Source of the DNA: Janibacter terrae NBRC 107853
GTDB lineage: Bacteria; Actinomycetota; Actinomycetes; Actinomycetales; Dermatophilaceae
Length of the DNA stretch: 64,000 nt
NCBI RefSeq assembly: GCF_001591405.1
Contig: NZ_BCUV01000010.1
Coordinates: 1-64,000, forward strand
Direction of reading: 5' to 3'
The position numbers were made by a program, and so were the translations under genes. This document shows, piece by piece, positions 36,407 through 63,975 of the stretch (its first letter is position 1; each line of letters opens with the position of its first letter). The notes under the pieces were generated by a model. The model did not search any database. It was not told the origin of the DNA and saw nothing but the letters and a program-made list of their open reading frames with translations.

Positions 36407-39400
36407 ATGACCAAGGCCGGCTCGACCCGTACATCGCTGATCGAGCGGCTGGTGAACAAGGCTGGCGGGGTGCGGTCCGAGGCGACGATCCAGTCGGACG
36501 TACGGATGCTGCTGCTCGACCCCGAGCTCGGTCTCGAAGACGACGACCTGGAGGTCCACCTCGAGGCCCAGGTCGGGCCGGGCCGGCGCATCGACGTCGA
36601 GATCGGCTGCACGGTCATCGAGGTCAAGAAGTCCTTGGCCAGCCCGTCCACCATCGCGGCCGCCACGACCCAGCTCGCGGGGTACGTCCAGACCCGTGCC
36701 CAGGAGATGGGTCGCCGCTACGTCGGGATCCTCACCGACGGCCGGCTCTGGATCGCCTTCCACGAGGTCGACGACGAGCTGGTGGAAGCGACCCGTCACA
36801 CCGCGACCGTCGGCGTAGCCGGCGCCACGGCACTCCTGCGCTGGCTCGAGGGAGTGCTGGCGACCAAGCGGGCAGTCAAGCCGACCCCGACCGAGATCGC
36901 GGACCGCCTCGGCGCTGCGAGCTCCTCGCACGCCCTGGACTACTCCACACTGGCCTCGTTGTACGCCGACAGCCGAGACCTGCCGACCGTGGTCCTCAAG
37001 CGCGAGCTGTGGGCCAACCTCCTGCGCAGCGCCCTGGGCACGCAGTTCACCGACGACGACGAGCTCTTCCTCGAGCACACGCTCCTGGTCAACAGCGCCG
37101 AGATCATCGCCCACCTCGTGCTGGGGCTCGACGCCGAGGGGCTCTCGGCCGCGACCCTGCTCTCCGGGGACCAGTTCGCCGTCGCCGGCCTGCACGGCGT
37201 CGTCGACCGCGACTTCTTCGACTGGGTCCTCGAGGTACCCGGCGGCGAAGGGTTCGTCACCTCCCTGGCCCGGCGCCTTGCCCGCTTCGACTGGTCTGCC
37301 GTCGAGCACGACGTCCTGAAGGTCCTTTACGAGTCCGTCATCTCCCCCGAAACCCGCAAGGCCCTCGGCGAGTACTACACCCCCGACTGGCTGGCCCACC
37401 GCGTCGTCTCCGAGGTCGTGACCGACCCGCTCAACCAGCGTGTGCTCGACCCGTCCTGCGGGTCCGGGACCTTCATCTTCTACGCGGTACGCCGCTTCCT
37501 GAACGCGGCCGACGAAGGGGGCCTTTCCCTCGCAGACTCGATGGGCCTTGTCTCCTCCCGCGTCATGGGCATCGACCTGCACCCCGTCGCCGTCGCCCTG
37601 GCCCGGGCCACCTACCTCCTGGCGCTCGGCCGCGACCGGCTCAACGCGAAGGACCGCGGCGTGCTGTCCGTGCCGATCTACCTCGGTGACTCGCTCGGGT
37701 GGGACCAGCGGGAGGACCTGCTGACCCAGGACCAGCTCGTCATCCCCACCGAGGTCGGCGACCAGCTCCTCTCCGGCGAGCTCGTCTTCGGGGAGCACCT
37801 GCTGGAGAACGCCGCAGCATTCGACGACCTTGTCCAAACCCTCGTCGACGAGTCCGGCCGCGCCGCCGGCAAGGCGACCAACAAACTCTCCGAGGGGACT
37901 ATCCGCCGGCTCGCGCTGACCGAGACCGACCTGCCCGACCTCAACGCCAACTTCCGCCGGCTCAAAGAGCTCCACGAGGCCAACCGGAACCACATCTGGT
38001 CGTACTACATCCGCAACGTCGCCCGCCCGGCCTGGCTCGCCCGCGAGGAGAACCGCGTCGACGTGCTCGTAGGCAACCCGCCGTGGCTGTCCTACCGGCA
38101 CATGACCGATTCGATGCAGAAGCGGTTCAAGACCCTGGCCAAGGACCGGGGGTTCTGGCACAACGAGACCACCGCCACCCACCAGGACCTCGCCGGCCTC
38201 TTCGTCGCCCGCGCCGTCGAGCGATATCTCAAGACCGGCGGCCACCTCGGCTTCGTCGTCCCCAACTCCGTCATCGACCGCGACTACTGGTCGGGCTTCC
38301 GCGCCGGGCGGTTCGACGGCGCTGCGGTCACCTTCACCGCCAGCTGGGATCTGCGCCGGATCCGTCCCCACCTCTTCCCCCGCGGCTCCGCGGTCATCTT
38401 CGGCGCACGCACCGCCGAGCCGGGGGCTATGCCTGGCCACGCCCTGGTGTGGACCGGGCGAGCCCCGCGCCGCCACGCCAGCACCGAAGAGGCTCTCCTG
38501 CTCCACCAGAAGGTCGCCGAACTGGCGATCGGCGCCGAGGACGACCAGAGGTCGCCCTATGCCTCCCGGTTCAGCCAGGGCGCGAACCTTGTGCCGCGGG
38601 TGCTGTTTCGGGTCGAGCCAGCCAAAACGACCTCGCTCGGGGTGCCCAGCGGCCGCGCGGCGGTGCAGTCCAAGCGCTCGGTCAGCGAGAAGAAGCCGTG
38701 GAAGGAGCTGCCCAACCTGGAAGGGACCGTCGAGACCCAGTTCATCTGGCCGGTGGCCCTCGGCGAGCAGGTCGTTCCCTTCGTCATGCGCGAGCCCGAG
38801 CAGTTCGTCATCCCGCTCACCCAGAAGGGCGAGGTCCTCGGCGGTGACCACCCCAGCATCGACGGCTACCCAGGGCTCGCCGATTGGACCCGCAAGGCTG
38901 AAGAACTATGGGAGCTACACGGCAAGTCGAAGTTGAGGCTGGATCAACAGATTGACCACATGAGCAAGCTGTCCCAACAGGTACCTTGTCCTCCGGTCCG
39001 AGTGGTGTACGCCAAAGCGGGTATGCACGTCTCCGCTGCAGTGATTGACGACCCCCGCGTGATCATCGACCACAAGCTCTATTGGGCCGCGGTCTCCACT
39101 CTGGCTGAGGGCCACTACCTCGTAGGGATTCTCAGCGCGCCGGTGCTCACCGAGCTGGTCCGACCGCTGATGTCGTACGGCAAGGACGAGCGCGATATCG
39201 ACAAGCACGTGTGGAAGCTGCCGATCCCCACCTTCGACCCAGGGGTCGAGCTGCACGCCGAGATCGCCACCCTCTCGGCCGAGATCGCCCAGGAGTTCGC
39301 CGACCTCGAGTTCGACACGACCAACTTCGTCACGATCCGCAAGCAGTTGCGCGCCCGGATCCTGGCCAGCGAGACGGGGCAGCGCCTTGATGTCCTGGTC

Positions 39401-40093
39401 GCGCGCCTGCTCGACGTCGACGCTGCCGCGGCCGAGGGAGTGGCCGCCGACCAGCAGCACCCGCTGCTGATCCGCACCAACTCCTCCGCCATCCCCGATG
39501 CGGCCGACGTCGAGATAGACGTCGACTGCGAGTTCGACGCCGAGGGCCGGGTCTACCTCTGGGGTGCCTTGGTCTCCCGCGGCGATGACGAACCGGCCTA
39601 CACGCACTTCGTAGACGCCTCAGCGGAGGTCGACGAGACCGCGCTCACCGAGCAGTTCGCCGCCTGGCTGACCGACCTCCTTGACCAGGAACAGTCGACC
39701 GGGCGATCGGTGTCGTGGTTCCACTACGGCCACGTCGAGACCACGCACCTGTCCCGGCTGCTGCCGGCGGCGGACGCGCAGCCCTTGATCGGGTGCGCGG
39801 TCGACCTGCTCGCCGATGTCGTCCGTCCGGGCTTCTACGCGCCTACCGGGTACGGGCTGAAGCACCTGGCGCCGGGTGCCGGCGCGAGGTGGCGCACCGA
39901 GGGCGCGACCGGCGCCGACACCCTCGGCTGGGTCGAGCAGGCCCGGGCTGGTCAGCCTGGGATGTGGGAGAAGTTGGTCGAGTACAACGAGGACGACACC
40001 CGCGCCACGCTGCTGCTACGTGCTGCTCTGCGGGGGGCCGGGCCGGTGGGATGGACCCTGGAGCCTCACCAGGACGGGTCGAGCGCGACCTGA
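36407..40093 (+). CDS. fused nuclease / N6-adenine methyltransferase / RNase H-like protein (1228 aa)
   Basis: Three parts. Residues about 20-120: PD-(D/E)xK-type nuclease (RRIDVEIGCTVIEVKKS). Residues about 320-640: adenine methyltransferase with motif I VLDPSCGSGTFIF (347) and motif IV VGNPPWLSY (555). A probable target-recognition region follows to about 1000. Residues about 1030-1228: RNase H-like exonuclease domain of the kind found at the end of TM0106-type RecB nucleases (EIDVDCEFD, YGLKHLAPG, LVEYNEDDTRATLLLR). The first two parts make a type IIG-like restriction-modification enzyme; the third is unusual. No partner gene lies beside it. Probable plasmid-borne defence against phage or foreign DNA. 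Confidence 0.8.
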   Translation: MTKAGSTRTSLIERLVNKAGGVRSEATIQSDVRMLLLDPELGLEDDDLEVHLEAQVGPGRRIDVEIGCTVIEVKKSLASPSTIAAATTQLAGYVQTRAQEMGRRYVGILTDGRLWIAFHEVDDELVEATRHTATVGVAGATALLRWLEGVLATKRAVKPTPTEIADRLGAASSSHALDYSTLASLYADSRDLPTVVLKRELWANLLRSALGTQFTDDDELFLEHTLLVNSAEIIAHLVLGLDAEGLSAATLLSGDQFAVAGLHGVVDRDFFDWVLEVPGGEGFVTSLARRLARFDWSAVEHDVLKVLYESVISPETRKALGEYYTPDWLAHRVVSEVVTDPLNQRVLDPSCGSGTFIFYAVRRFLNAADEGGLSLADSMGLVSSRVMGIDLHPVAVALARATYLLALGRDRLNAKDRGVLSVPIYLGDSLGWDQREDLLTQDQLVIPTEVGDQLLSGELVFGEHLLENAAAFDDLVQTLVDESGRAAGKATNKLSEGTIRRLALTETDLPDLNANFRRLKELHEANRNHIWSYYIRNVARPAWLAREENRVDVLVGNPPWLSYRHMTDSMQKRFKTLAKDRGFWHNETTATHQDLAGLFVARAVERYLKTGGHLGFVVPNSVIDRDYWSGFRAGRFDGAAVTFTASWDLRRIRPHLFPRGSAVIFGARTAEPGAMPGHALVWTGRAPRRHASTEEALLLHQKVAELAIGAEDDQRSPYASRFSQGANLVPRVLFRVEPAKTTSLGVPSGRAAVQSKRSVSEKKPWKELPNLEGTVETQFIWPVALGEQVVPFVMREPEQFVIPLTQKGEVLGGDHPSIDGYPGLADWTRKAEELWELHGKSKLRLDQQIDHMSKLSQQVPCPPVRVVYAKAGMHVSAAVIDDPRVIIDHKLYWAAVSTLAEGHYLVGILSAPVLTELVRPLMSYGKDERDIDKHVWKLPIPTFDPGVELHAEIATLSAEIAQEFADLEFDTTNFVTIRKQLRARILASETGQRLDVLVARLLDVDAAAAEGVAADQQHPLLIRTNSSAIPDAADVEIDVDCEFDAEGRVYLWGALVSRGDDEPAYTHFVDASAEVDETALTEQFAAWLTDLLDQEQSTGRSVSWFHYGHVETTHLSRLLPAADAQPLIGCAVDLLADVVRPGFYAPTGYGLKHLAPGAGARWRTEGATGADTLGWVEQARAGQPGMWEKLVEYNEDDTRATLLLRAALRGAGPVGWTLEPHQDGSSAT

Positions 40094-46766: not shown

Positions 46767-48968
46767 TCAGGTCAGATCCCCCAAGATCGACTCTTCTTCG
46801 TCGACGGGGATGGGCTTGCGCACCATGAACGGCTCGTCCTCCGGCACGGCCTCGGTGCCGTCGTCGACCCCGACGTTGGAACGCCAGGCGATAAGCGCCA
46901 GACCGGGGTCGTCGGGGTCGGGCGAGGGTTCTTCCTCCACGACACCCCAGCTGCCGTCCTCGAGTTCGATGAGGTCGCCGGGATTGAGCTCGTAGGCACC
47001 GGCCACCTGCTCCGGCTCGGCGTAGCCGGCGAACTCGTCGAGCTCGACCTCGCCCGGACCGACATCCGCGCTGGTCCCGCCGACGGCGTGCAGATGCCGG
47101 CGCGCTCGGGCCCCTTCCTCGGCCTCGCTCTCACCAGGGATCCGCTGCTGACCGACCCTCAGCACGGCGACCGGGGAGGCCGCGACGCGGCCATCGACGG
47201 GCTCTTCGCTGCCCCGGTGGAGAGGGTCGAGGTCTGGGCGTTCGTCGGCGTAGTGCCAGGCAGCGCTGACGTAGTCGTCGAAGGTCGGGATGATCTCGAC
47301 ACCGGTCTCGGGGTCCAGGGTGGGCCGAGGCACCTCGATGACCAGGCGCGGGTGTCGTCGCTCGGTGGGACGCACCGAGTCGATCAGCGCGCGCTCCTGG
47401 GTGCCGTCGGCGGCATCCATATCGGGGAAGCGGAAGAACTGCGCCTCCACCGGTTGCCCCTCGTGGCCGGTGACCATGCCTCGTTGGCGCATCGAGCGCG
47501 GGATCGCGACGCCGGTGGCTGCGTTCTGCCACATCATCACCGCGCCCTGTGGGTCGAGGCGGCCCACACTCATCCGGAAACCGAAGTTGGACCGAGCCTC
47601 ACCACCGCCGGCCCCGCCGCCGCCGAGCAGCGCGACGTCTGGGCGTTGCATCGCCACGACCAGGTGGATGCGTGCGGTGCGAGCCAGCCGCAGCAGGGAT
47701 CCGATCTGCTTCAGGGTCGGCGGCTTGTTCGCCTTGCCCGACTTCACATCGGGATACCAGGCCAGCAGGTTCTGCACGAGCTCGGCCAGCTCGTCGATGA
47801 CGACGACGAGAGGCTCGAAGTCGCTGATCTTGGCCCGGCCAGACTTGATCAGCGTGTAGCGCTCGTTCATCACGCGCTCGGCGGCGTCGATGACGGCGAC
47901 CTGCTCCTGGATGGAGGTCGCCACCATCTGCACGTTGGGCCAGTCCCGGAAGGCAAGGAACTCGATCTGCTTGCCGTCTGCGATCCACACCGGCCACCCG
48001 TGACGAGTGACCTCGGCCAGAAGCGCGTGCATCGTCGAGGTCTTGCCGGTGCCGGTGCCGCCGCTGATCAGGACCTGGGGCAAGATCGCCGGCGCCCACT
48101 CGACGATGTTCTGATCCTCGTCCATACCGACCCGAAAACGCACCCGGCCGTAGTCGGCGAGCAGGTCCTCCCCCACCTCGGGCGAGTCCTGGGGGATCCA
48201 CAGGCTGGTCGGCAGCGAGGGCCGGCGCTCGAAGCGAACCACGTCACCGGAGAGGTCCCACTTGGCCCGCCAGCGCTCGGGCTGGATCGTGGTCACACGG
48301 CTCTCGATGGCCCGGCGGATCGCCGGCTGAGCGAAGCGCGTGGGGTCCTCGTGCGCGGCGTCCAGCGCGACCAGGTGCCCCTCCTCGTCGAAGGCGACCC
48401 CGGCGATGCTGCCGGTCTCACCGAGGAGCTTGAGCACCGCGTCCTCGAGCCTGCGCTGCTCACGAGGCCGTTCGTCGACAGCACCGGGCTTTAGGCGCGT
48501 CGGGGCGAGCAGGATCCGACGGCGGGGCCCGTCGATGCTCTCGATGACGAACTGCTCACCCAGACGGGCCGAGACGGCCTCGGTGAGCCGGGCGCGCCAC
48601 TTGGGGTCGTAGTCGGCCTGGTGCGCGACGTAGGACAGGGTGATCGTCGAGATCTCCCGGCCGGAGTACCCGACCTTGACCATCTTGCGGGAGGGCCCGC
48701 CGATCAGCGGCGCCAGAGTCGTCGCGAGCGAGTCGCGGACGCGCTGCCTCTCCCAGGAACGTCGACCCTGGATGAAGGTGGTGGCCCCGAGGACGGCGCC
48801 CCCGGCCAGCGCCGGGACGTCCCATCCCGGGTAGCCCACGATCGGCAGCAGCCCCCAGCCGGCCACCCCGGCCCCGGCGAGCAGGCCTGCCTGCTGCCGG
48901 TAGTTGCGGGGCGGCTCGCGGAGCAGGTCGTACTGGTCGGCATCGCTGGAGCGCTCGACGAGGTTCAT
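46767..48968 (-). CDS. FtsK/SpoIIIE-type DNA-translocating ATPase, conjugative coupling protein (733 aa)
   Basis: Two hydrophobic segments near residues 25-60 (QAGLLAGAGVAGWGLLPIVG), then the ATPase: Walker A ISGGTGTGKTSTM (about residue 302), Walker B LVVVIDELAEL (about 384), and VVAMQRPDVALLG. The tail is acidic. This is the TcpA/TraB-like coupling protein of Gram-positive conjugation. I use the ATG at 48968, only 6 bases after motif copy B, so translation may be leaderless. Confidence 0.88.
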   Translation of the reverse strand: MNLVERSSDADQYDLLREPPRNYRQQAGLLAGAGVAGWGLLPIVGYPGWDVPALAGGAVLGATTFIQGRRSWERQRVRDSLATTLAPLIGGPSRKMVKVGYSGREISTITLSYVAHQADYDPKWRARLTEAVSARLGEQFVIESIDGPRRRILLAPTRLKPGAVDERPREQRRLEDAVLKLLGETGSIAGVAFDEEGHLVALDAAHEDPTRFAQPAIRRAIESRVTTIQPERWRAKWDLSGDVVRFERRPSLPTSLWIPQDSPEVGEDLLADYGRVRFRVGMDEDQNIVEWAPAILPQVLISGGTGTGKTSTMHALLAEVTRHGWPVWIADGKQIEFLAFRDWPNVQMVATSIQEQVAVIDAAERVMNERYTLIKSGRAKISDFEPLVVVIDELAELVQNLLAWYPDVKSGKANKPPTLKQIGSLLRLARTARIHLVVAMQRPDVALLGGGGAGGGEARSNFGFRMSVGRLDPQGAVMMWQNAATGVAIPRSMRQRGMVTGHEGQPVEAQFFRFPDMDAADGTQERALIDSVRPTERRHPRLVIEVPRPTLDPETGVEIIPTFDDYVSAAWHYADERPDLDPLHRGSEEPVDGRVAASPVAVLRVGQQRIPGESEAEEGARARRHLHAVGGTSADVGPGEVELDEFAGYAEPEQVAGAYELNPGDLIELEDGSWGVVEEEPSPDPDDPGLALIAWRSNVGVDDGTEAVPEDEPFMVRKPIPVDEEESILGDLT

Positions 48969-48974
48969 ACCCGT

Positions 48975-49006
48975 GAAGAGGTGCCCCTCGCAGGCCTTCC
49001 TGGAAG
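48975..49006 (-). promoter_or_regulatory. backbone promoter motif, copy B
   Basis: CTTCCA... boxes as in copy A: minus strand CTTCCA-N17-CACCTCTTC, then ACGGGT and the ATG of the FtsK-like gene. The GTGAG extension of the other copies is replaced by GTATGA here. Confidence 0.7.
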
Positions 49007-49077
49007 GGCCTGGGCGCACGAAAGGTGGCGGCGTTCGTGACGCCACCACCTCCGCGCACTGCTTATTCGTAGTGCCC

Positions 49078-51303: not shown

Positions 51304-51571
51304 GGCGGGCCTCCTTGGTTCGGGATGAGCGGGCGTGCGCGACCCAGATGCCGGCAACCACCAGGACTGCCACGACGACGAGTCGGCGAAGGTCCAGCCC
51401 CGCGTCGAGGAATGGCACCGGGAGCAGGCTCGCCTCGGCGCCGACCAGGACCTGCTTCTCGAGCAGCCACCCCCGGACGGCCGCACGGACAGAGGGGAGC
51501 AGCGCGGGCAGGAAGAAGACCGCGAGGAAGAGCAGCAGCAGCTTGCTGGTGGCGTCCTCGTCCTGATTCAT
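51296..51571 (-). CDS. small membrane protein (91 aa)
   Basis: Two hydrophobic helices: KLLLLFLAVFFLPALLP (residues 10-26) and LVVVAVLVVAGIWVAHA (about 66-82). ATG overlaps the whiB stop (ATGA). May be an accessory of the transfer channel. Confidence 0.6.
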   Translation of the reverse strand: MNQDEDATSKLLLLFLAVFFLPALLPSVRAAVRGWLLEKQVLVGAEASLLPVPFLDAGLDLRRLVVVAVLVVAGIWVAHARSSRTKEARRG

Positions 51572-51831
51572 GCCGCCACCGGGGAGAAGGACGCGCTCTG
51601 GTTGACCGCCCGTGACCGCTCGTCCCGATCGGTGCCACCCCAGATCCCGAACTCGGGCTCGCCGTCCGCGTGCTTCTGGATCGCGAACTCGGCGCACGCT
51701 TGGAGCAGCGGGCACCCGGAGCAGGCCTTCTTCGCGGCGCGCTTGTCGCGGCGCAGCTCGGAGAACCACAGGTCCGGCTGCTGGGAGCAGGGGAGCTCGA
51801 TCGTGTGCTTGCTCTGCGGGTTGGGCCTCAT
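51568..51831 (-). CDS. WhiB-family Fe-S transcriptional regulator (87 aa)
   Basis: Four cysteines in WhiB spacing (PCSQQPDLWFS, then KACSGCPLLQACAEFA) bind a 4Fe-4S cluster; GIWGGTDRDER is the family turn and basic region. The ATG at 51831 has AAAGGAGG upstream. It is the first gene after promoter-motif copy C and probably regulates plasmid genes together with a sigma factor. WhiB proteins are restricted to actinobacteria and their phages. Confidence 0.92.
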   Translation of the reverse strand: MRPNPQSKHTIELPCSQQPDLWFSELRRDKRAAKKACSGCPLLQACAEFAIQKHADGEPEFGIWGGTDRDERSRAVNQSASFSPVAA

Positions 51832-52014: not shown

Positions 52015-52140
52015 AATATGACGTCGCATATGCATCGGCAGATGGGGCGGCAGAGGCACCCTCAGAGGTACCCGCAGAGGGGCAGGCAGGTGCTCACGCA
52101 GAGGACTGCGCTGATGGCACGGCATAGGCGGCTGCAGATG
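52015..52140 (-). repeat. 12-bp-spaced iteron array 2 (11 units), candidate parS-like site
   Basis: Hexamers at 52015, 52027, 52039, 52051, 52063, 52075, 52087, 52099, 52111, 52123 and 52135, each exactly 12 bp apart. On the plus strand they are AATATG, CATATG, CAGATG, CAGAGG (four times in all), CAGGTG, CTGATG, CATAGG, CAGATG. Their complements (CATCTG, CACCTG, CCTATG, CATATG) are the units of the array before parA. Lies between the T4SS terminator and the whiB promoter. Confidence 0.8.
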
Positions 52141-52222: not shown

Positions 52223-53812
52223 CTACTGGTAGCTGACGTGGACGTGATCCTTGTGGAGCAGGGTGTCCCCCGAGGTCGGGGCGTAGCGGGTGTACGGCCG
52301 CCACCCCTCGGAGTCTCGGTCGACCGACCAGATCTTGACGTCCCAGATCACGTACTTCACGCCGAGCTCCTGGGCGTGCTTGCGGGTCCACTGCGCCAAC
52401 TGCCAGCCTCGTTCCCGGCCGGCGGGCGTGCTGTAGGCGGGGATCATGAAGTCGACAGCCATCCCGGACCCGTGGTCGGAAGGTCCCTGCCGCTCCCCCA
52501 CCCCGTACATCGTCTCGACCCAGTCGAAGGACCCGCTGGTGCAGCGCAGGCCCCTCAACGCCACGGGCTGGAGCCCCTTCTCGGCGCTGCTGCCGGAGGC
52601 CTGGCAGCTCCCGGGGGCGCCCGGCATTCCCCGCACGACCTGCTCCCCATCGCAGCCAGCAGCGCTTCCGTCGCTTTTGGCCAGGGCGGCGGCCAGCGCC
52701 GGGTCGTCGGTGATCTGCGAGACCAGCGTGACGGCCTCGTTCCAGGACTTGGCGTAGTGGTTGGCGTCGGCGTTGCCCTGGGTGCGGTGGGCGGCCAACG
52801 TCGGGGAGAGGTCGCGGTACCCCTTGACCTTGACCAGGGCGTCGAAGAAGAGGAGAGCCGAGGAGTAGGCGTCCATGCGTTTGTTGAGGGGCCCCCAGCT
52901 GGTCCGCTGCTGGAAGACCCCTCTGCTGTCAGGGCCGGCTATGTCGCCGTGATCGAGCTCGCGCAGGTCGGACTCCCCGATGCCGGTCATGACCCCGACG
53001 GTGGCGCTCCACTGGTCGAGTCCGCGGGTGTTGGCCGCGCGGATGATCTCCATGGCCACCCTGACCTGGTCGGCGTTGAACCGGCCGAGGGATCGGGCGT
53101 TGCCCTTGGGTGCGTCGGCTGGGTCTTCGCCGCCGGAGCTGACGTCCGCGGTGACGACCTCGATGTCAGCAGCTGAGTCTGGGTCTGAGGTCGAGACGGA
53201 GGCTGCGGTCGCGGTCCCTCCTAGCGGGGGCATCTTCACGCCTTGCTGCTTCAGCCAGGCGATGGGGTCGACGGGTTGGCCGCCGCGGTGCACCTCGAAG
53301 TGGAGGTGATTGCCGGTGGACAGGCCTGTGGTGCCCTCAACACCGACGGCTCCTCCGGCGCTGATCTGCTGGCCCTGCGTTGCGCTGATGCTGGCCAGGT
53401 GGAAGTAGCGGGTGCGGATCCCGCCCCCGTGGTCGATCTCGACGAAGTTCCCCGCGCCGGGGTCTCCGTGGACCACTGTGGCGACCTTGCCGGCCTTGGC
53501 GGCGACGATCTTCCCGCCGGAGGGGACGGTGGTCAGGTCGGCGCCGGCGTGCAGCCGCCAGACCTGGAGGACGGGGTGGAAGCGCTGCCCGAAGGGCGAG
53601 CCGTACCGGAAGGTGCCGGCGATGGGCGCTCGAGCGGGCCCGCCGCTGGCCAGGACGACGTCCTGGCCGACGGTGTCGCAGCCCTCCATCGCGTGGGCCG
53701 CGGACGTTGAGGCGCTGAAGAACGCCATGGCCGCCATGGCGATGCCGACCGGGACGGCCACGACGGCGACGAGCAGCGGTGCCACGATCATCGCGACGTG
53801 CTTGGGCTGCAT
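52223..53812 (-). CDS. multidomain peptidoglycan hydrolase of the conjugation apparatus (529 aa)
   Basis: N-terminal membrane helix (MIVAPLLVAVVAVPVGIAMA). LytM/M23 endopeptidase with HAGAD (about residue 86) and HLHFEVH (about 169). A lysozyme/transglycosylase-like middle with GIGESDLRELDHGD and GVFQQRTSWG (about 275-300). The C-terminal domain has DHGSGMAVDFMIP (about 444) and KDHVHVSY (about 521), zinc-ligand patterns of M15/VanY-like or ARB_07466-type domains. Such enzymes open the cell wall for the transfer channel (TcpG/VirB1-like role). The ATG overlaps the previous stop (TGATG). Confidence 0.85.
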   Translation of the reverse strand: MQPKHVAMIVAPLLVAVVAVPVGIAMAAMAFFSASTSAAHAMEGCDTVGQDVVLASGGPARAPIAGTFRYGSPFGQRFHPVLQVWRLHAGADLTTVPSGGKIVAAKAGKVATVVHGDPGAGNFVEIDHGGGIRTRYFHLASISATQGQQISAGGAVGVEGTTGLSTGNHLHFEVHRGGQPVDPIAWLKQQGVKMPPLGGTATAASVSTSDPDSAADIEVVTADVSSGGEDPADAPKGNARSLGRFNADQVRVAMEIIRAANTRGLDQWSATVGVMTGIGESDLRELDHGDIAGPDSRGVFQQRTSWGPLNKRMDAYSSALLFFDALVKVKGYRDLSPTLAAHRTQGNADANHYAKSWNEAVTLVSQITDDPALAAALAKSDGSAAGCDGEQVVRGMPGAPGSCQASGSSAEKGLQPVALRGLRCTSGSFDWVETMYGVGERQGPSDHGSGMAVDFMIPAYSTPAGRERGWQLAQWTRKHAQELGVKYVIWDVKIWSVDRDSEGWRPYTRYAPTSGDTLLHKDHVHVSYQ

Positions 53813-54462
53813 CAGTGGACGCCTTCGGGGGCCCGGATCGAGGAGACCCGCCAGGTGCCGTCGTCGCGGTCCGTGGTCAGCAGGACGGTCCACTGGCCGA
53901 CGTCGGTGGGGACCAGGACAGCGACCTCTTCGTCTCCGTGCCCGTCGTCTGCGCCGGAGTCCTCGCCAAGGATCAGGTGGGCCCGGCCGGTGACCTTCCG
54001 GAAGGGGACCCGCTCGGGGTCGATGCCGATCATCTCGTTGCGGCCCTGCGCTGAGAGCAGACCTTCGGTGCGTGACCACCATGTCGAGTACCCGAGCTGC
54101 GGGGACTGGGCGAGCAGGCGCATGACCTGCTCGGCCCGCTCGGGTGCTCCTCGGGCGGACTTCTTGGCTGACTGGACGGCCGACGGGTCGATCCGGTCGT
54201 GGTCGTGCCCGCTGGCCGGGCTGGTGGCGCTGCGGGGCGGCTCTGAGGTCCCGGGGTGGGGGGGGGATCTCGATGGTCCCAGGCTCGGGCTGGGGGTCGA
54301 CGACGGCTGCGCCGAGTGGGTCGGCTGTGGCCCCGACTCGTCGCCGCGTCCCAGCAGCAGCATCACGGTCAGGAGCAGCGCGAGGCACACGAGGGCGGTC
54401 ACGACCGGGCCGCGGCGGAGGCGCACGGTCGGGAGGCCTTGATGAGGTCCGGGGCGACTCAT
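53812..54462 (-). CDS. membrane-anchored T4SS accessory protein (216 aa)
   Basis: One membrane helix (VVTALVCLALLLTVMLLLG, residues 19-37), a Ser/Pro linker, then a 120-residue domain likely outside the membrane (LGYSTWWSRTEGLLSAQG, VAVLVPTDVGQWTVLLT). Coupled on both sides. The fold resembles small NTF2-like or lipoprotein modules of conjugation operons; I cannot name it. Confidence 0.65.
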   Translation of the reverse strand: MSRPGPHQGLPTVRLRRGPVVTALVCLALLLTVMLLLGRGDESGPQPTHSAQPSSTPSPSLGPSRSPPHPGTSEPPRSATSPASGHDHDRIDPSAVQSAKKSARGAPERAEQVMRLLAQSPQLGYSTWWSRTEGLLSAQGRNEMIGIDPERVPFRKVTGRAHLILGEDSGADDGHGDEEVAVLVPTDVGQWTVLLTTDRDDGTWRVSSIRAPEGVH

Positions 54463-61650: not shown

Positions 61651-62370
61651 ATGTACCAGACCATCGACACAGACCTCGATCGCCAGATCACCGACGAGTG
61701 GGCCAGCGCCTACGCAGACCAGCCACTCCCCCACGAGTGGACGGTCATCGACCCGACGCTTGCCGCTCTTCCCACCCTGGGCCACCTGCTTGACGCCATG
61801 GGCCCGCGCGGTGCGCTGGCCGACAGCGACCGCGTCTACCTCGCCCTGATCACCCGCGCCCAGGCCGGTGAGGCGATGGCGGGCAGGGTCCTGCTTCAGC
61901 GCCTCCAGCCGCGCTGCCGCCAGCTCTTCGGGACCGCCGCGAAGCGGGGCCTGGATGACGTGGCTGCCAGCGCCTACGCCGCCGCCTGGTCCGCGGTCAT
62001 GACCTATCCGCTGACCCGCACGACCAAGGTAAGGATCAACCTGTCCATGAGGGTGCTCAACGCCATCCCGGACGCTCACGAGGAGCCCACGCCCATCGCA
62101 GCCGACGACCTTGGACCGAGGATTGCCGACGACGCACCCGTGAGCGCGACCTGCGAGGCCGCTCGCCTCCTTCTCTGGGCGCTCGATCACGACGTCATCT
62201 CCCAGGACGAAGGGGCGCTGCTCTACCGCGCGACGCTCGACGCCAGCGCCTCGATCAACGCCGCTCTCACGGAGATCGCTGCCGAAGAGGGAGTGACCAG
62301 CCGTGCCATGCACGGTCGGTACTCCCGCGTGGTCGAGAAGATCACCGCGGCCGTTCTCGAGACGACCTGA
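61651..62370 (+). CDS. sigma-factor-like protein (239 aa)
   Basis: GCCAGGAGCCAGGG precedes the ATG. The middle reads like a degenerate sigma region 2 (ALITRAQAGEAMAGRVLLQR, then AASAYAAAWSAVMTYPLTRT). The end resembles region 4 with a helix-turn-helix (ISQDEGALLYRATLDASASI, then EEGVTSRAMHGRYSRVVEKI). No anti-sigma gene is adjacent. Divergent from the T4SS operon and promoter-motif copy D. It may direct RNA polymerase to the four backbone motifs; that is inference. Confidence 0.6.
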   Translation: MYQTIDTDLDRQITDEWASAYADQPLPHEWTVIDPTLAALPTLGHLLDAMGPRGALADSDRVYLALITRAQAGEAMAGRVLLQRLQPRCRQLFGTAAKRGLDDVAASAYAAAWSAVMTYPLTRTTKVRINLSMRVLNAIPDAHEEPTPIAADDLGPRIADDAPVSATCEAARLLLWALDHDVISQDEGALLYRATLDASASINAALTEIAAEEGVTSRAMHGRYSRVVEKITAAVLETT

Positions 62371-62416: not shown

Positions 62417-62649
62417 CATATGTCACCGCATATGTGTGCTCATATGCTTCCGTCTATGCCGCTTCGTATGTGTCCCCAGATGTGCCCCCCTATGCGCGTG
62501 CATCTGTGAGGTCATATGGCGCGGCATATGTGGCCCTTCTGCGTCTTCGTCTGCTTGCTCATATGCTTCCCCACCTGTTGCTGCGTCTGTTTATGCATAT
62601 GCCGCCGCATATGTGTCCTCATCTGCATCTTCTGATGTACCGTCATCTG
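62417..62649 (+). repeat. 12-bp-spaced iteron array 1 (20 units) before parA, candidate centromere
   Basis: Hexamers start at 62417, 429, 441, 453, 465, 477, 489, 501, 513, 525, then 536, 548, 560, 572, 584, 596, 608, 620, 632 and 644: 12-bp steps with a single 11-bp step. Units are CATATG (8), CATCTG (3), CGTCTG (2), and one each of TCTATG, CGTATG, CAGATG, CCTATG, CTTCTG, CACCTG and CTGATG. Flanking bases are free. Direct repeats upstream of parA are the usual parS of type Ib partition systems, bound by small ParB proteins. Confidence 0.88.
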
Positions 62650-62719: not shown

Positions 62720-63382
62720 ATGCCTGAGCCACAGCTCATCGTCGTCGCGGGTCAGAAGGGTGGGCCGGGGAAGTCGACGACCACAATCAACCTTGCGGCC
62801 TGCTTCGCAGCGGAGGGGGAGCGCGTCCTAGTCGTCGACATCGACCCCCAAGGCAGCGCGGTCGGGTGGGCGGAGACGGCCGGAGACGCACTGCCCTTCG
62901 ACTTCGCCGCCAGCGACGACCCCGGGCTGCTGTCATCCCTGAAGCAGGTCGACTACGACTACGTCCTCGTCGACACCCCCGGCTCGCTCGTCGAGGTCGA
63001 GAAGAACCAGGCCCTGATCCCGATCGCCGACTTCGTGGTCATCCCCTCGCTGGGGGACCCGCTGGGCATGGAGCCGCTGGCCCGTACCGTCCATCAGGTC
63101 CTCACACCGACAGGTGTCCCTTTCCGGGTGCTGCTCAACAACGTCTCCGACCGTCGGGGACCGGCCTGGCCGATCACCACGATCCACACGCTCGCCGCCG
63201 CCGGCCTCCCGTGCTTCCGGACCTACATCCGCTCCTACGTCACGCTGACCGACGCGCCCGGCACCGGGGCGGTGGTCACGCAGCTGACCGACGAGCCCGG
63301 CAAGAAGAGCGCCCGGCTCTACAAGCAGGTCGCCCAGGAGATCCGCGACATCCTCGCGGCCAACGACGGCGGCACGCGATGA
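62720..63382 (+). CDS. parA: ParA-type partition ATPase (220 aa)
   Basis: Deviant Walker [21 protein letters not shown] at the N-terminus, [25 protein letters not shown] (Walker B). Without an N-terminal DNA-binding domain it is a type Ib ParA. The ATG at 62720 is chosen; GGAGGG lies about 12 bases before it. A frame extension to 62651 would run into the iteron array. Coupled to parB by ATGA. Confidence 0.92.
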
Positions 63383-63975
63383 GCCGCCAGCAGAACCTGG
63401 CCAACCTCCTGGCCCGCGGCACAGCCAACGCCGCGCAGGCCGGCCCGATGGTCACCACAGACACCGAGCCCGCCACCAAGCCCACCCAGGCGACGCCCCG
63501 GAAGGCCCCGAAGAAGGCCGCGCCCAAGCCGGACAAGACCTCTCCGAAGACGAGTGTGGACGACGTCGCGGACGGGCCCATGGTGCGCGCCGCCAGCCTG
63601 ATCCCCGCCGACCTGCACAAGGAGATCTCTGAGCGGGCCGACGGCACCTTCGGCCAGCTCATCACCTGGTCGTGCATCGACTTCCCAGATCAGATCGTCG
63701 AGGACGTGCTGACCTCGCTCGGAGCCGGAGCTCAGGTCTCCCGCGCCCCGCGCATCAACCGTGGAGCAGCACCCAAGAGCAACACGAGACAGATCGCCCC
63801 AACCTTCCTGCCCAACGAGAACGCGATCGTGCTCGACCTCCTCGAGCAGATCAAGCAGTCCGCCGCCGACGCCGGCGTCGACCCCGGCACCGCAAAGCGG
63901 ATCACCCGAACCGTCCTGCACGCCGCAGCGCTGCGGCGCTGGGCCACGGAACATCCCCAGACCACCACCGACTGA
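63379..63975 (+). CDS. parB: ParB-like centromere-binding protein (198 aa)
   Basis: Basic, Pro/Lys/Thr-rich N-terminal 75 residues ([20 protein letters not shown]), then a helical domain ([20 protein letters not shown] and [17 protein letters not shown]) that may be ribbon-helix-helix-like. A second helical part ([19 protein letters not shown]) ends the protein. Its coupling to parA and the iterons make it the likely binder of both arrays. Confidence 0.75.

Follow-up and report, generated by a model that had tools for sequence, protein, structure and literature searches.

A 12-bp-phased hexamer array before parA on a Janibacter plasmid-type contig: a probable type Ib-like centromere with a second array in the transfer operon

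The par locus and array 1

The stretch of DNA analysed here, the window, comprises bases 1-64000 of contig C10 (132,461 bp) of the 3.58-Mb Janibacter terrae genome. From its gene content the contig is likely a plasmid; its ends do not overlap. A conserved gene of about 240 aa with no confident family (61651-62370, plus strand) is followed by array 1 (62417-62649, plus strand), a series of 20 CATMTG hexamers, and 70 bp beyond the end of the array parA begins (62720-63382, plus strand). The parA stop codon overlaps the start codon of the next gene (ATGA, 63379-63382). This gene (63379-63975, plus strand), the candidate parB or centromere-binding protein gene, lies directly downstream of parA and encodes the 198-aa 63379 product. 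Beyond it are a SAF-domain gene, a MinD-like gene (recognized by eye) and T2SSE/T2SSF genes. On the other side, upstream of the 240-aa gene, runs a divergent transfer operon (TcpC, AAA_10 ATPase, M23 peptidase, FtsK/SpoIIIE); its M23 peptidase gene occupies 52223-54388 and the gene of its FtsK/SpoIIIE-type ATPase, likely the coupling protein of the transfer system, 46767-49049, both on the minus strand. The same contig also encodes, at 36407-40093 (plus strand), a 1228-aa protein with Eco57I/N6 methylase and RNase H-like domains.

ParA is a short-form deviant Walker A ATPase of 220 aa with QKGGPGKST at residues 12-20 and without an N-terminal DNA-binding extension. It matches Pfam PF13614 (1e-20), PF01656 (2e-16) and VirC1 (2e-8), and reaches 1e-30 against NCBIfam NF041546, which is below the cut-off. 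A type III (TubZRC) system was rejected because the neighbour of the array is ParA, not a tubulin-like GTPase. What we found at the locus is what marks type Ib systems: a deviant Walker A ParA, the gene of a candidate centromere-binding protein directly downstream, and short repeats, here the putative centromere, upstream of the operon.

We found that the hexamers of array 1 start at 62417 + 12n (n = 0-9) and then at 62536 + 12n (n = 0-9). Eighteen of the steps are therefore 12 bp and one, from 62525 to 62536, is 11 bp; this single short step (62525-62541, plus strand) divides the array into 10 + 10 units. The earlier note on this DNA had described 20 hexamers every 12 bp over 233 bp with one 11-bp slip, and a de novo chain fit that was given the pitch but no unit coordinates returned the same 20 units and the same slip. 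Since the slip shifts the reading frame, the 12-bp period is not a coding repeat. The 12-bp peak that the note expected in an autocorrelation was present: values at lags 12, 24 and 36 were 0.55, 0.51 and 0.50 against a dinucleotide-shuffle mean of 0.27 (z 8.6, 7.1 and 6.5), and no other lag up to 40 exceeded z 4. The top value at any lag in 2000 shuffles was 0.43. On these shuffle statistics we rejected the array as a chance product. Eight of the nine CATATG occurrences in the window lie inside array 1. We found no sigma-70-like promoter in the interval from array 1 to parA.

The consensus of the unit is C-A-T-[AC]-T-G, in which TG is invariant (20/20), followed by C1 (19/20), T3 (17/20) and A2 (13/20). 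The right half (ATG or CTG) is thus more constant than the left, which makes the site a polar near-palindrome. The spacer had been called unconstrained. This is true of positions +7 and +8, which are free, but +6 is C or T in 19 of the 20 units (0.77 bit), +9 is C in 14 (0.92 bit) and +10 is C or T in 17 (0.59 bit).

The 63379 product has no Pfam or NCBIfam family match; PF18064, to which Pfam assigns the C-terminal domains of centromere-binding ParBs, gave none up to E 1. Searches with tblastn gave no convincing relatives in plasmids (E up to 10), in 186 genomes of the family and 396 of the order, or in viral contigs; a contig scan with ParA alone and viral-contig scans with tandem ParBs gave none either. 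Against every ParB profile that we built there was no significant sequence similarity. A single-sequence structure model was unreliable (pLDDT 43). The N-terminus fits the start M-x-R-x-x-L-x-x-L-L, which is found in most of the other ParBs of the group, long and short (for example MARKSLGSLV and MARADLSSLLG). In type Ib systems a flexible N-terminus has been implicated in ParA activation (PMC5016525).

Array pitch and ParB type in related plasmids

Plasmids of Microbacterium, Curtobacterium and Arthrobacter carry an array before parA, followed by parB, a SAF gene, a hypothetical gene and a T2SSE ATPase gene, and in several of these syntenic plasmids the upstream gene and a divergent transfer operon are present too. 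In L025, L031, L040 and L041 the matching place holds a gene similar in size to the 240-aa gene. The layout of the window is found in Microbacterium sp. No. 7 plasmid A, whose ParA is 47% identical, in M. paraoxydans, in Curtobacterium pC1c, where NlpC/P60 replaces M23, and in Arthrobacter pAL1. In pAL1 (L235:23165-35959) a BREX defence cassette lies between the transfer operon and the par locus, a junction that is short in the window and in the Microbacterium plasmids. Among the 185 other genomes of the family, none has an array like array 1 before a parA. The array had been considered unlike known parS iterons; this holds for its sequence, whereas its design, with phased short repeats immediately ahead of parA, is shared with known type Ib systems and recurs very commonly among related plasmids.

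We surveyed the period before parA in 46 loci, with 60 dinucleotide shuffles per locus. In the window this region scored z 13.0 against a maximum of 4.1 in its 60 shuffles. Loci with long ParBs had a significant period of 11 bp in L025, L031, L032, L040, L042, L057, L064, L067, L070, G535 and G241, and of 12 bp in the window and, less clearly, in G208 and G350, although lag 12 in G350 may stem from another repeat. The loci with short ParBs had a period of 8 bp, except two Cryobacterium loci at 7 (14) bp. Pitch therefore divides by ParB type: 11-12 bp accompanies ParBs of about 200 aa and 8 (7) bp short, single-domain ones. After near-copies had been thinned, 10 loci stood against 24 with no exception among the clearly significant ones (Fisher p 8e-9, for loci that are not independent). 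L041 and L043 showed no significant period before parA, and lag 9 in L029 falls partly inside a coding gene.

On the ParA tree the 11-bp class is polyphyletic and falls into two distant parts. One of them (L025, L057, L064, L067) is nested among 8-bp loci (97/98), while L040, L042, G535 and G241 stand across a very long, fully supported branch; the ParA of the window sits on a long branch of unsure placement. The scatter of the 11-bp loci indicates that the array and its pitch go with ParB, not with ParA. The core of the array differs by plasmid (GCGC, TTGCA, CATATG).

L064 (JAFEGM010000121.1), a contig catalogued under a Verrucomicrobia MAG, has a ParAB locus nearly identical to that of the Microbacterium plasmids and is probably a misbinned plasmid contig. 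The Agreia plasmid pCOWG (L026:2683-2922) has, ahead of parA, a near-perfect tandem array with a 16-bp unit made up of two 8-bp half units. It exceeds the other arrays in uniformity by far and has perhaps expanded recently. The Micrococcus linear plasmids (L043-L045) encode long, two-RHH-like ParBs with repA adjoining and, in L043, which was tested, no significant array before parA; their centromere may be elsewhere.

The 8-bp arrays of Microbacteriaceae and Micrococcaceae plasmids (L027, L033, L055, L059, L024 and others) share with the window the order array-parA-parB, a ParA about 40-47% identical and, in most, the N-terminal motif of ParB. They differ in the 8-bp unit and in a short ParB with the motif RKExRLRxDQ...GERITENTLIRVAIDLLL. 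The 11-bp plasmids with long ParBs (Microbacterium No. 7 plasmid A, M. paraoxydans, Curtobacterium pC1c, Arthrobacter pAL1) share the synteny, the array before parA, a ParB of about 200 aa and a second cluster before the FtsK gene, described below. They differ in their 11-bp pitch and GCGC or TTGCA core, and the similarity of their ParBs to the 63379 product is not significant. The pCXC100 ParB of Leifsonia xyli subsp. cynodontis likewise belongs to a type Ib system of an actinobacterial plasmid with a centromere of direct repeats only (PMC5016525). The 63379 product differs from ParBs of this type in having no match to PF18064; the Microbacterium proteolyticum ParB (L036) matches that family.

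For the relatives with 11-bp arrays, structure prediction suggests what such a ParB may look like. The L057 ParB, predicted from four sequences, shows beta-alpha-alpha twice (E91-96 H97-110 H114-146; E165-170 H174-187 H192-203), with block-mean pLDDT of 80-91 over most of both halves and 64 overall. In a Foldseek search of the PDB the first eleven rows were F-plasmid relaxosome chains, which we take to be TraY; the E-value of 0.09 is weak by itself. VIA-align gave Z 9.1 over 95 residues at 3.0 A for the F relaxosome chain, about 3 for single ribbon-helix-helix (RHH) proteins such as CopG, and 2.8 for VirC2. Eleven rows agree, the topology has two motifs, and RHH proteins appear among the viral matches of the structure search; these ParBs are therefore likely composed of two RHH motifs in one chain, with a predicted fold closest to that of F-plasmid TraY. 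By length, order and hydrophobic pattern in an alignment, the 63379 product could fit this tandem-RHH group (L025, L031, L057, L040, L042), but its HMM score of 5.9 is below the best shuffles and the hhalign probability was 0.2 per cent.

A second array in the transfer operon

The earlier note overlooked a second array, and with it the picture shifts from one centromere to a two-site system that reaches into the transfer operon. Array 2 (52015-52140, minus strand) lies between the M23 peptidase gene and a whiB-like regulator gene directly downstream of it (51568-51831, minus strand; PF02467, E 4e-13). A scan in 12-bp phase gave 11 hexamers of the array 1 motif in strict phase: CATCTG, CCTATG, CATCAG, CCTCTG, CACCTG, CCTCTG, CCTCTG, CCTCTG, CATCTG, CATATG and CATATT. 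Chain scores on the contig were 129 for array 1, 52.6 for array 2 and about 10 for everything else, and permuted motifs reached at most 15.6. When the whole 3.58-Mb genome was searched with the pattern, arrays 1 and 2 were the only two places found, so both are confined to one plasmid-type 132-kb contig.

The lag-12 signal of array 2 is also high (z 11.1). Codon periodicity inflates lags that are multiples of 3, and array 2 was therefore judged by its motif instead. For the same reason, lag-12 signals at four other places on the contig (55491, 120181, 59841 and 58151; z 6.6-7.9) were set aside.

Second clusters are also present in the relatives. In L231, L233 and L234, we searched with each plasmid's own 11-bp unit and took no account of position; the runner-up chain fell in the gap, about 400 bp long, that precedes the FtsK gene. 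For pAL1 this gap was predicted beforehand, and we then found in it the chains ranked second and third on the plus strand and second on the minus strand. In G535 the runner-up on the plus strand precedes an FtsK-like gene (a weak Pfam match) by 167 bp, but the one on the minus strand is situated elsewhere. For the four annotated gaps together, a naive calculation puts the chance at about 2e-7, a figure that shared ancestry and the base composition of the gaps raise. These clusters are short, of 3-13 units, and each alone is modest evidence. Together they repeat the layout of the window: an array of 11-12 bp pitch ahead of parA, and another cluster in the stretch from the M23 gene to the FtsK gene. 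The core varies between plasmids and the second cluster uses its own plasmid's unit, as expected of a site that co-evolves with one trans-acting protein.

On the simplest reading, we infer that array 2 is a second binding site of the 63379 product in the transfer operon. It would either regulate whiB and the transfer genes, much as several promoters are overlapped by omega sites on pSM19035 (PMC5016525), or mark the plasmid for transfer as TraY and VirC2 do.

In L231 (13716-14297) and L233 (14506-15099) the stretch from the M23 gene to the FtsK gene also encodes a protein that contains two similar repeats, with the endings NDGQPFPP and YNAGSPFPP; L234 (19550-19906) has one repeat. By eye the repeats resemble the C-terminal part of the PF18064 ParB of L036, and the L231 protein had no Pfam match. 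This protein is a candidate for a second DNA-binding protein beside the second cluster.

Partition, regulation and transfer

The earlier note had proposed a candidate centromere of the parAB pair, and the comparative evidence of position, synteny and pitch by ParB class supports this proposal well. We consider array 1, with a probability of roughly 0.85, to be the parS centromere of a type Ib-like ParABS system for plasmid partition, in which it probably also serves as the operator for autoregulation. Type Ib systems with RHH ParBs such as pSM19035 delta-omega resemble the window in a ParA without N-terminal extension, a centromere-binding protein, contiguous phased short repeats before the par genes, and several sites over the replicon that overlap promoters (PMC9499535, PMC5016525).

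The arrays might instead serve mainly conjugation, as sites of a relaxosome-type accessory protein (such as TraY or VirC2) or of the FtsK-like ATPase, as the clt repeats are of Streptomyces TraB. ParA and ParB would then not partition the plasmid but deliver it to the transfer apparatus, in the manner of VirC1-VirC2. The fold predicted for the relatives' ParB, closest to the F relaxosome chains and weakly matched by VirC2, is consistent with such a role, as are the VirC1 score of ParA and the location, in four related plasmids, of the second cluster in the gap ahead of the FtsK gene. TraY combines two RHH units in one chain, and VirC2 of the Ti plasmid is encoded with a ParA-like protein. However, transfer origins are where these proteins act, with no long phased array ahead of a parA gene, and a common fold shows no function. 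The larger array always precedes parA rather than lying in the transfer operon, many plasmids with other neighbours have 8-bp parA-array pairs beside short ParBs, and no FtsK gamma domain was found in the FtsK protein of the window. We regard a role mainly in conjugation as unlikely.

Each array immediately precedes an operon, read in the direction of its transcription, and array 1 might be no centromere but just the transcriptional operator of parAB, with array 2 as the operator for whiB and the transfer operon. The omega repeats of pSM19035 do overlap promoters (PMC5016525, PMC9499535), but operator and centromere are commonly the same DNA in type Ib systems, and 20 units over 233 bp far exceed what an operator needs. 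A ParA ATPase also needs a centromere, and the only other array of the motif on the contig is array 2. An operator without a centromere role is accordingly still less probable than a device for conjugation. Least probable of all, and by our estimate very improbable, is a replication-origin iteron array. Phased short repeats occur at iteron origins too, which is general knowledge and not something to which a result of ours points. No replication gene adjoins the array in the window or in the array-bearing syntenic relatives, the unit class follows ParB, and the Micrococcus plasmids have repA beside parB, yet in L043, the one tested, no significant array was found before parA.

If array 1 is a centromere, the 63379 product would bind every CATMTG unit and coat the array in a regular protein-DNA filament. 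Through a flexible N-terminal peptide it would contact nucleoid-bound ParA and trigger ATP hydrolysis, so that the plasmid would follow the ParA gradient; by binding the array it probably also regulates its own operon. On pSM19035, full ParA activation needs four or more contiguous heptads (PMC9499535), and an array of 10 + 10 units would amply meet such a need. Omega binds the 7-bp sequence WATCACW, one small RHH dimer per heptad, in a left-handed spiral. The window differs from it in the 12-bp unit, the CATMTG core in place of WATCACW, the 198-aa protein and the opposite angular step. At 10.5 bp per turn the steps are about +51 degrees for 12 bp, -120 for the 7-bp omega repeats and -86 for 8 bp. 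A 12-bp step, one turn plus about 51 degrees, would thus advance right-handed with seven sites per turn of the spiral, opposite in sense to the 7-8 bp arrays. A spiral of small ParB dimers, as the earlier note envisaged, is the weak part of its proposal: the partner has 198 aa, and the 11-12 bp relatives encode predicted single-chain tandem-RHH proteins, so each unit may be occupied by one chain and not by a dimer of small ones.

The feature is real and familiar in kind; it is new in its sequence, its pitch class and its two-site layout, and is probably a variant of type Ib partition, possibly one coupled to transfer. We tentatively propose, as an idea that may well prove wrong, a class of actinobacterial conjugative plasmids in which a single-chain tandem-RHH ParB would read 11-12 bp phased arrays at two fixed places, a centromere before parA and a further site in the transfer operon before an FtsK-like gene, and so couple partition with the control or start of conjugation; the unit sequence would drift fast while the pitch and the two-site layout stay. 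The findings yield a testable rule: partition sites would take their pitch from the architecture of the protein that binds them, 7-8 bp for a single RHH and 11-12 bp for a probable tandem RHH. They also offer a way to find centromeres in plasmids whose ParB defies sequence recognition, and plasmids with paired partition and transfer sites are a direct test bed for the long-standing question of the coordination between partition and conjugation.
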